A stretch of 64,000 nt of DNA. It comes from Rhodospirillales bacterium. GTDB lineage: Bacteria > Pseudomonadota > Alphaproteobacteria > UBA8366 > Aestuariispiraceae. Below the pieces are notes generated by a model. It ran no database searches and was not told the origin of the DNA. It saw nothing but the letters and a program-made list of their open reading frames with translations. This document shows positions 49,054 through 49,905 of the stretch, piece by piece. Made by a program: the position numbers and the translations under genes. Where the stretch lies: assembly GCA_002696645.1 (NCBI GenBank), contig NZSA01000023.1, positions 32,615 to 96,614 of the forward strand, given 5' to 3'. The stretch's first letter is position 1; each line of letters opens with the position of its first letter.

Positions 49054-49096
49054 GGTCGGCCTTTATATAATGCTGGAGGTTTATTCTCTCCCAAGG

Positions 49097-49143
49097 ATAG
49101 TATATATGGTGTGGATGGCAAGAGGATAATCTATATATTGTGG
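49097..49143 (-). promoter_or_regulatory. Pair of NrdR boxes upstream of nrdB
   Basis: On the minus strand, ACACCATATATACTAT (49112-49097) and CCACAATATATAGATT (49143-49128) both match the NrdR consensus ACACwATATATwGTGT closely. Their centres are 31 bp apart, three helical turns, the standard arrangement for cooperative NrdR binding. The proximal box overlaps a likely -10 region. Confidence 0.85.
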
Positions 49144-49144
49144 T

Positions 49145-49176
49145 TTATCCCCAGCTTTTCCCCAGACTTGTCCACC
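49145..49176 (+). promoter_or_regulatory. Three tandem DnaA-like boxes beside the NrdR sites
   Basis: TTATCCCCA (49145-49153), TTTTCCCCA (49156-49164) and TTGTCCACC (49168-49176) each resemble the DnaA box TTATCCACA with one to three differences. They are spaced 11 and 12 bp apart, on the same helical face. DnaA control of nrd genes is known in E. coli; here it is an inference. Confidence 0.5.
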
Positions 49177-49243
49177 GAAAAAATCGTGACAATGGATTCA
49201 GTGGTGCTGCAAAGCGTCTTGGACTTGTCTTCTCTCGTGGCAT
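49145..49243 (-). CDS. Possible 32-residue small ORF upstream of nrdB
   Basis: An ATG at 49243 follows a strong AAGGAG at 8 nt spacing and opens a 32-codon frame ending TAA. The predicted peptide is basic and aromatic (MPREKTSPRRFAAPLNPLSR at the start, ending GKSWG). The last codons coincide with the DnaA-like boxes. It could be a real small protein, a leader peptide of nrdB or a chance ORF; no coding statistics are available at this length. Confidence 0.25.
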   Translation of the reverse strand: MPREKTSPRRFAAPLNPLSRFFRWTSLGKSWG

Positions 49244-49293
49244 CGGGAACTCTCCTTCAAGATAACAGCAACATTTGTCGGGAGTGAGAAAAG

Positions 49294-49905
49294 ATGGAAA
49301 AGCCTAGGACTTATTCTTTGGAGGGCGTCCGCCCGGTCATTGATCCTACCGCCTATGTGCATCCAACCGCTGTTCTGATCGGGGACGCGATTGTCGGGCC
49401 GCGATGCTATGTCGGACCTGGTGCGGTCATGCGGGGAGATTTCGGTCGTGTTGTGATGGAGGAAGGGTCTAATCTGCAGGATAACTGTATTATGCATGCC
49501 TTTCCCGGTATGGATTGCGTGATCGAGGTGGATGGTCATATTGGCCATGGCGCAATCCTGCATGGCTGCCGCGTGAAGCGGAATGCGCTGGTGGGCATGA
49601 ATTCCGTGGTGATGGATGGCGCAATTATTGGCGACAGCGCCATGGTTGCCGCCATGGCTTTCGTTAAGGCCGGGTTTGAGGTGCCAGACGGTATGCTGGC
49701 GGCGGGCACGCCTGCGAAGATTCTGCGCGCCCTGTCTGAAAAGGAAATCGCCTGGAAAGAAGAAGGCACCAAGGATTATCAACGCCTGTCTGAGCGTTGC
49801 CACGCGACTCTGACATTGTGCGATCCCTTGGCTGAAGTGGAACAAAACCGCCCAAAGCTCAGCGCCGGAGAGTCCATCCCGCTGTTTCAGACGAAACGGA
49901 AGTGA
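49294..49905 (+). CDS. Gamma-carbonic-anhydrase/PaaY-like hexapeptide-repeat protein
   Basis: The 203-aa protein forms a left-handed beta helix from hexapeptide repeats (VIDPTAYVHPTAVLIGDAIVGPRCYVGPGAVMRGDFG ...). Zinc-ligand His residues of the gamma class appear in CIMHAF, GHIGHGAILHG, and a following GMNSVVMDGAIIGDSAMVAAMAFVKAG. The C-terminal 40 residues are helical, as in PaaY, a thioesterase of phenylacetate metabolism. No paa genes are adjacent, so either a carbonic anhydrase-like or an acyl-CoA-related role is possible. The start has GGGAGTGAG upstream. Confidence 0.8.
   Translation: MEKPRTYSLEGVRPVIDPTAYVHPTAVLIGDAIVGPRCYVGPGAVMRGDFGRVVMEEGSNLQDNCIMHAFPGMDCVIEVDGHIGHGAILHGCRVKRNALVGMNSVVMDGAIIGDSAMVAAMAFVKAGFEVPDGMLAAGTPAKILRALSEKEIAWKEEGTKDYQRLSERCHATLTLCDPLAEVEQNRPKLSAGESIPLFQTKRK

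Follow-up and report, generated by a model that had tools for sequence, protein, structure and literature searches.

The nrdB control region

The window, by which we mean the whole 64,000-nucleotide stretch of DNA that was analyzed, carries nrdB on its minus strand, and the features of the nrdB control region are collected in Table 1 together with related sites elsewhere in the genus. The earlier note had placed two good NrdR boxes 31 bp apart upstream of nrdB, directly followed by three DnaA-like boxes at 11- to 12-bp spacing. The gene assignment was borne out by a profile search (NF007186), the distance of 31 bp between the NrdR box starts proved exact to the base, leaving a spacer of 15 bp, and the three boxes, starting at 49145, 49156, and 49168, were confirmed.

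Table 1. Coordinates of the nrdB control region and of DnaA-type double boxes found elsewhere in the genus
Feature	Location	Strand	Basis or remark
nrdB, ribonucleotide reductase (RNR) small subunit, 319 aa	48094..49053	-	NF007186, E 4.4e-173, 574.9 bits vs cutoff 237
Likely -10, TATCCT	49094..49099	-	Sequence reading; TATTCT or TATCAT-like in genus mates
NrdR box, promoter-proximal, ATAGTATATATGGTGT	49097..49112	.	NrdR consensus scan; kept in 6/6 genus genomes
Likely -35, TTGCCA, 16 bp from -10	49116..49121	-	Sequence reading; CTTGC invariant in 6/6 genus genomes
NrdR box, distal, AATCTATATATTGTGG	49128..49143	.	NrdR consensus scan; kept in 6/6 genus genomes
DnaA-type box 1, TTATCCCCA, W-box core TCCCCA	49145..49153	+	Aligned G010 and G012: TTTTCCCCA
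DnaA-type box 2, TTTTCCCCA	49156..49164	+	Motif scan of window
DnaA-type box 3, TTGTCCACC, 7/9 matches	49168..49176	+	TTTTCCACT in G010, TTTTCCACC in G012
Divergent gene, PaaY/gamma carbonic anhydrase-like protein	49294..49905	+	Probably not the gene served by the array
Double box before NrdJ-type RNR	L113 upstream of 3188, G000:C90		Also L259, L260, L261, L262, L268
Double box before dnaE	L267 about 1590-1625, G000:C32		Also L269, L270, L271, L272
Double box before sdhC	L253 about 2456, G000:C11		Also L256, L257, L273, L274, L275
Double boxes before uvrC	L254 about 2035, G000:C60; L258 about 2194, G013

Judged by their sequence, both NrdR sites at nrdB are nearly certain to be real. The usual spacer of NrdR operators is 15 to 16 bp (PMC12051234), and the nrdB pair combines a spacer of this length with an RNR gene downstream, an overlap with the predicted promoter, and an NrdR gene in the genome. 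The two boxes flank the -35 element of the likely promoter, and the order read along nrdB is DnaA-type array, NrdR box, -35, NrdR box, -10, and start codon; since nrdB lies on the minus strand, the DnaA-type boxes stand upstream of its promoter. Set beside an NrdR operator, with its two boxes and 15-bp spacer over an RNR promoter, the sole difference is the adjoining DnaA-type array.

This array (49145-49176) reads TTATCCCCA-gc-TTTTCCCCA-gac-TTGTCCACC, all in one direction with gaps of 2 and 3 bp, and is separated by 1 bp from the 16-bp distal NrdR box. Compared with TTWTCCACA, boxes 1 and 2 have one mismatch each, at the same position (C for A), and box 3 has two; the TCCCCA core is found in boxes 1 and 2 and not in box 3. 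The array would work like a W-box cluster, yet we do not class it as one because no G-box (TGATCCACA) was found nearby, that is, in the intergenic region 49054-49293.

Conservation of the two motif sets at nrdB

The nrdB promoter was aligned across six genomes of the genus, namely, that of the window (G000), G009, G010, G011, G012, and G013. Conservation of both motif sets in relatives, the check named in the earlier note, held throughout the genus for the NrdR boxes (6/6) and only in part for the array, which was found in four of the five other genus genomes and was missing from G013 and, in the 320 bp read, from two more distant relatives, G001 and G002. Counting the window's own genome, five of six thus carry it, as three or four boxes. 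The bases of the array are identical to those of the window at 32/32 positions in G009 and at 31/32 in G011; the left flank is identical at 18/27 and 8/27 positions, and the leader on the other side at 36/44 and 37/44, respectively. Since the leader is also well kept, conservation of the array among close mates is by itself weak evidence, and since G009 is a very close relative (its NrdB is 99% identical to that of the window), G011, whose upstream flank is unrelated, is the informative comparison.

G010 and G012 have four boxes with gaps of 2, 2, and 3 bp, i.e., one 11-bp unit more than the window, the G010 array being TTTTCCCCA-gc-TTCTCAACA-gg-AATTCCACA-ggg-TTTTCCACT. G013 kept the NrdR boxes at nrdB and lost the array. 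In G001 and G002, which belong to the same family and to other genera, NrdR-like sites and no array were seen in the 320 bp before nrdB, a gene not immediately preceded by nrdA in these two genomes. Among the genomes compared, the nrdB array is confined to the genus. The gene for NrdR (TIGR00244) is found in all 14 family genomes, G000 included, as is a DnaA gene, and the canonical GRDHTTVMHA is present in all six DnaA proteins of the genus.

A separate observation concerns the sequence CP051228.1 (L004), entitled Mesoflavibacter sp. isolate ih5, whose NrdB is 90% identical to the alphaproteobacterial NrdB of the window. This title is probably wrong.

Rarity of the array

Scans of the window for single motifs were rejected as proof, as the sites stay at chance level: TTWTCCACA with at most one mismatch gave 31 matches vs 24.6 expected, box 3 not being among them, and the NrdR consensus with at most three mismatches gave 11 vs 11.9. 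Scored as three boxes spaced by 2 and 3 bp, the array has 25/27 matches to TTWTCCMCA, a consensus whose A or C at position 7 was admitted post hoc, when the sites were already known, and which is biased towards the array. Elsewhere in the window, three triples come to 22, and in 300 dinucleotide shuffles of the window the best triple was 22/27 and a perfect pair occurred in none. With this caveat on the consensus, the arrangement of the boxes as an array exceeds chance.

Across the six genus genomes scanned, the perfect double box TTWTCCMCA-NN-TTWTCCMCA occurs only at nrdB of G000, G009, and G011. When two mismatches were allowed, double boxes with a 2-bp gap were found at 2 places in G000 (backward control, 1) and those with a 3-bp gap at 8 places vs 1 in the control, one of the eight consisting of boxes 2 and 3 of the nrdB array. 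TCCCCA-N3..7-TCCCCA occurs at 5 places in the whole G000 genome, with 0 in the backward control.

TCCCCA as a putative DnaA box

The hemE gene was identified by TIGR01464, and its neighbor, a PpsR-like gene, was named by eye. By synteny, we take the region between these genes to be the place of the Caulobacter origin. At this presumed origin, the window's genome has TTATCCCCA and TAATCCCCA (L248, G000:C9), and TTTAATCCCC is invariant in 6/6 genus genomes beside an AT-rich stretch, where ATCCCCA-type boxes are found. One box of the nrdA leader is GTCCACAG in five genus genomes and ATCCCCAG in G013, amounting to a TCCACA/TCCCCA exchange at an aligned position, and in the nrdB alignment the TTTTCCCCA of the window stands opposite CTTTCCACA of G012. 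TCCCCA may, therefore, serve as a DnaA box in the genus. The W-boxes of the Caulobacter origin are TCCCCA (PMC4285127), and these boxes are described as binding DnaA very weakly and as relying on G-boxes (PMC4468827). The window resembles this origin in its TCCCCA core and in its clustered weak sites and differs from it in that the array belongs to a promoter and has its boxes in tandem, 2 and 3 bp apart, without a G-box.

NrdR pairs and DnaA boxes at nrdA

In the genome of the window, nrdA (NF006577) lies on a separate contig (G000:C30) and is preceded by TTGACA, two NrdR boxes, ATATCCACA, GTCCACAG, CTGTGAATAA, and, farther on, TGGGGATAA; a perfect TTATCCACA is found upstream of nrdA in G010 and G012. 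At the level of sequence, an NrdR pair with DnaA boxes, as at E. coli nrdAB, is thus found at both nrdB and nrdA of the genus. Boxes are also present in the nrdA leaders of two cultured members of the family, Hwanghaeella and Marivibrio. We also observed GAGTC, a CcrM-type GANTC site, before the nrdA -35 in 5/5 genus genomes covered by the alignment (L213, L202, L203, L205, and L206).

The class sample comprised 192 genomes, of which 172 had a match in the NrdA search, 86 of them strong (E below 1e-240); 80 nrdA upstream regions were used, the window's own being read separately and G132, G185, G020, G053, and G102 being left out. An NrdR pair was found in the allowed place in 47/80. The 160 bp after the pair hold 17 perfect TTWTNCACA boxes, spread over 14 of these 47 promoters, where upstream sequence predicts 1.4 and shuffles predict 0.55. 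At the named loci (n = 48, without L002, L003, L004, L018, and the loci lacking the pair, and with some nrdB promoters included), 20 perfect boxes occur in 15 promoters, with 0.7 and 0.36 expected, respectively. Counted by family label, 11 of the 37 families with a located pair (57 families sampled) have a perfect DnaA box after the nrdA pair, and the three upstream control windows gave 3, 1, and 0. In the remaining 33/47 promoters, the 160 bp past the NrdR pair are free of perfect DnaA boxes; hence, the pairing of NrdR and DnaA sites at nrdA is recurrent, not universal. TCCCCA after the NrdR pairs of the class showed no enrichment over shuffles (8 seen vs 2.6 expected from upstream sequence and 5.5 from shuffles), and 4 were seen at the named loci vs 2.6 and 5.9. 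As a TCCCCA enrichment in the class is unsupported, the W-type of box at nrdB is a local trait.

The boxes also have preferred positions. Over 98 promoters (15 loci having been dropped because they were duplicates, nrdB promoters of the genus, or of doubtful status), 30 of the 49 forward boxes with at most one mismatch start 1 to 2 or 10 to 13 bp past the 14-bp core of the second NrdR box, these offsets not being independent since promoters of the window's own genus and family are repeated in the set. The two preferred offsets are about one helical turn apart. On the plus strand at nrdB, the NrdR core is followed by gt and TTATCCCCA, with the same 2-bp gap and the gene running the opposite way, which suggests one NrdR-DnaA module usable in either orientation.

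A proposed composite operator for NrdR and DnaA

We propose, as the account that on balance fits best, that the nrdB region is a composite operator for NrdR and DnaA, and use of the array by DnaA appears likely. This proposal draws on an array that is beyond chance by the post hoc consensus and that, in G000, G009, and G011, holds the genome's sole perfect double box with a 2-bp gap, on the array bases kept in G009 and G011 together with the 11-bp unit difference in G010 and G012, and on gaps of 2 and 3 bp that match the preference of E. coli DnaA (PMC11317965). It further draws on the identity of TCCCCA with the Caulobacter W-box, the invariant TTTAATCCCC at the presumed origin, and the box exchange at nrdA, as well as on the recurrence of DnaA boxes after nrdA NrdR pairs and the presence of NrdR and DnaA in 14/14 family genomes. 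Counted against it are the weak W-boxes without a G-box, the array loss in G013, the absence in G001 and G002, the boxless 33/47 nrdA promoters of the class, and the TCCCCA count that does not exceed that of shuffles.

In our model, NrdR would act through the box pair at the nrdB promoter by the mechanism known from NrdR work in other bacteria, and DnaA would assemble on the three boxes in head-to-tail order, at about -58 to -89 relative to a start site assumed near 49087. Given the weakness of the TCCCCA type of box, a cooperative and probably ATP-bound form of DnaA should be required for occupancy of the array, and since the array lies 1 bp from the distal NrdR box, contact or competition between NrdR and DnaA would be expected. 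Bound upstream, DnaA could aid RNA polymerase or relieve NrdR around replication initiation, nrdB being induced at that time; we lean towards such activation or NrdR relief as the direction of control. The dual tie of dNTP supply to nucleotide level and to DnaA activity claimed in the earlier note gains from sites that are real, from an array beyond chance, from the same type of box at the presumed origin, and from recurrence at nrdA, and loses from an array that is genus-only. The link of dNTP supply to DnaA activity would follow from the proposed operator.

An unlikely alternative, for which we nevertheless see some room, is that NrdR alone controls nrdB and that the repeats bind another protein or act as an upstream promoter element, unused by DnaA. 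The C for the consensus A in two boxes, the two mismatches of box 3, single-box matches at chance level in the window, and a genus mate with NrdR boxes and no array all speak for it; on the other hand, the 2- and 3-bp gaps suit DnaA, as does the one-unit difference, TCCCCA boxes are found at the presumed origin and in the box exchange at nrdA, and double boxes precede dnaE and the second RNR in the same genus. The array could instead be a datA-like DnaA titration site that leaves nrdB unaffected, which a cluster of weak boxes away from the origin would fit too. We hold this to be improbable because the array is fixed relative to the NrdR boxes and, as G011 illustrates, travels with nrdB and not with the upstream neighbor, and other double boxes of the genus also precede genes. 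G011, with the array before nrdB and unrelated sequence upstream of it, makes it extremely improbable that the array serves the divergent PaaY/carbonic anhydrase-like gene, even though the intergenic region is common to both genes and the boxes in it are oriented towards that gene.

A further alternative concerns the nrdA leaders only, in which inverted boxes might form an RNA hairpin over the ribosome-binding site in place of DnaA sites. In L010 and L016, GGAGG and the start codon are immediately preceded by a TCCACA-NN-TGTGGA palindrome, as such a hairpin would have it, but the hairpin would leave the distal box and the first forward box unpaired, the forward boxes vary at position 5, which is free in the DnaA consensus, and structured RNA as a candidate was rejected after an Rfam search of 7 sources returned zero matches at gathering scores. 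We therefore regard the hairpin as very improbable.

The composite operator that we favor has its closest counterpart in E. coli, where DnaA regulates nrdAB (PMC8203912, PMC11317965) and NrdR and DnaA both act at this one RNR promoter (PMC12176259). E. coli DnaA has a preference for paired boxes with a gap of 2 or 3 bp, nrdA included (PMC11317965), and the nrdB array has this spacing in the same direction. E. coli nrdAB resembles the window in that an NrdR pair is accompanied by DnaA boxes in tandem, there a double box with a 3-bp gap (gTTATCCACAaagTTATGCACTt; PMC11317965). Unlike E. coli nrdAB, the window has nrdB separate from nrdA and three TCCCCA-type boxes, spaced by 2 and 3 bp, at a distance of 1 bp from an NrdR box. 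A further difference is that the available accounts of the E. coli nrdAB promoter put its NrdR pair on the downstream side. In Caulobacter, NrdB is named in the DnaA regulon (PMC3193534), NrdA is included in a DnaA regulon table (PMC3973325), and the DnaA-nrd case has been termed proposed (PMC8203912). Caulobacter crescentus nrdB and nrdA thus share with the window a connection of DnaA with class I RNR genes in an alphaproteobacterium, reported there through regulon lists. As far as these sources extend, the DnaA-nrd link in an alphaproteobacterium is not the first of its sort, Caulobacter NrdB and NrdA having been reported earlier.

A literature search with little subscription content yielded no description that we recognized of an NrdR-DnaA layout in alphaproteobacteria. 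What we would regard as new are a layout of NrdR and DnaA sites with a preferred phase, the reversed orientation of this layout at nrdB, and a predicted DnaA regulon of greater extent. We tentatively raise the possibility of a widespread NrdR-DnaA module in alphaproteobacteria, phased at about 2 or 12 bp, with boxes pointing away from the pair, contact or competition between the proteins, and use in both orientations (downstream of the promoter at nrdA and, in reverse, upstream of the promoter at nrdB), which in this genus would belong to a DnaA double-box regulon that also takes in the NrdJ-type RNR, dnaE, uvrC, and the sdh operon. Whether dNTP supply follows replication initiation via DnaA, beyond the dNTP feedback through NrdR, has been little tested outside E. 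coli, and an NrdR-DnaA operator that recurs with a favored arrangement offers a concrete mutation target. If true, the supply of building blocks would be coupled to the start of DNA copying, and the weak TCCCCA boxes known from the Caulobacter origin would also be regulatory sites in promoters.

Other DnaA-type sites in the genus

Upstream of the second RNR of the genus, of NrdJ type (TIGR02504), CCTGTGGATAAC-NN-TGTGGA is invariant in 6/6 genus genomes and overlaps the end of the preceding gene in the genome of the window. The dnaE gene (TIGR00594), encoding DNA polymerase III alpha, is preceded in 5/5 genomes examined (all but G013) by a double box of TCCCC type whose boxes are 3 bp apart, and this comes in two versions, TTATCCCCC-ggc-TTACCCCCA in G000 and TTCTCCCCA-gac-TTGTCCCCA in G010 and G012. 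DnaA-type double boxes were seen upstream of uvrC (TIGR00194) in G000 and G013, and CACAG-NN-TTWTCCACA upstream of sdhC (TIGR02970) in 6/6 genus genomes, an unexpected place for DnaA-type boxes. Some double-box matches are intragenic (L255, L263, L264, and L266).

Candidate box clusters on C33 and C39, among the 100 of 139 matches listed, were rejected as clusters, that on C39 being a pair 240 bp apart and that on C33 the pair at the start of the dnaA gene. The latter consists of TTTTCCACA and TTTTCCCCA, 48 bp apart (G000:C33:16126 and 16174; L211, L277), and is possibly an autoregulatory site.
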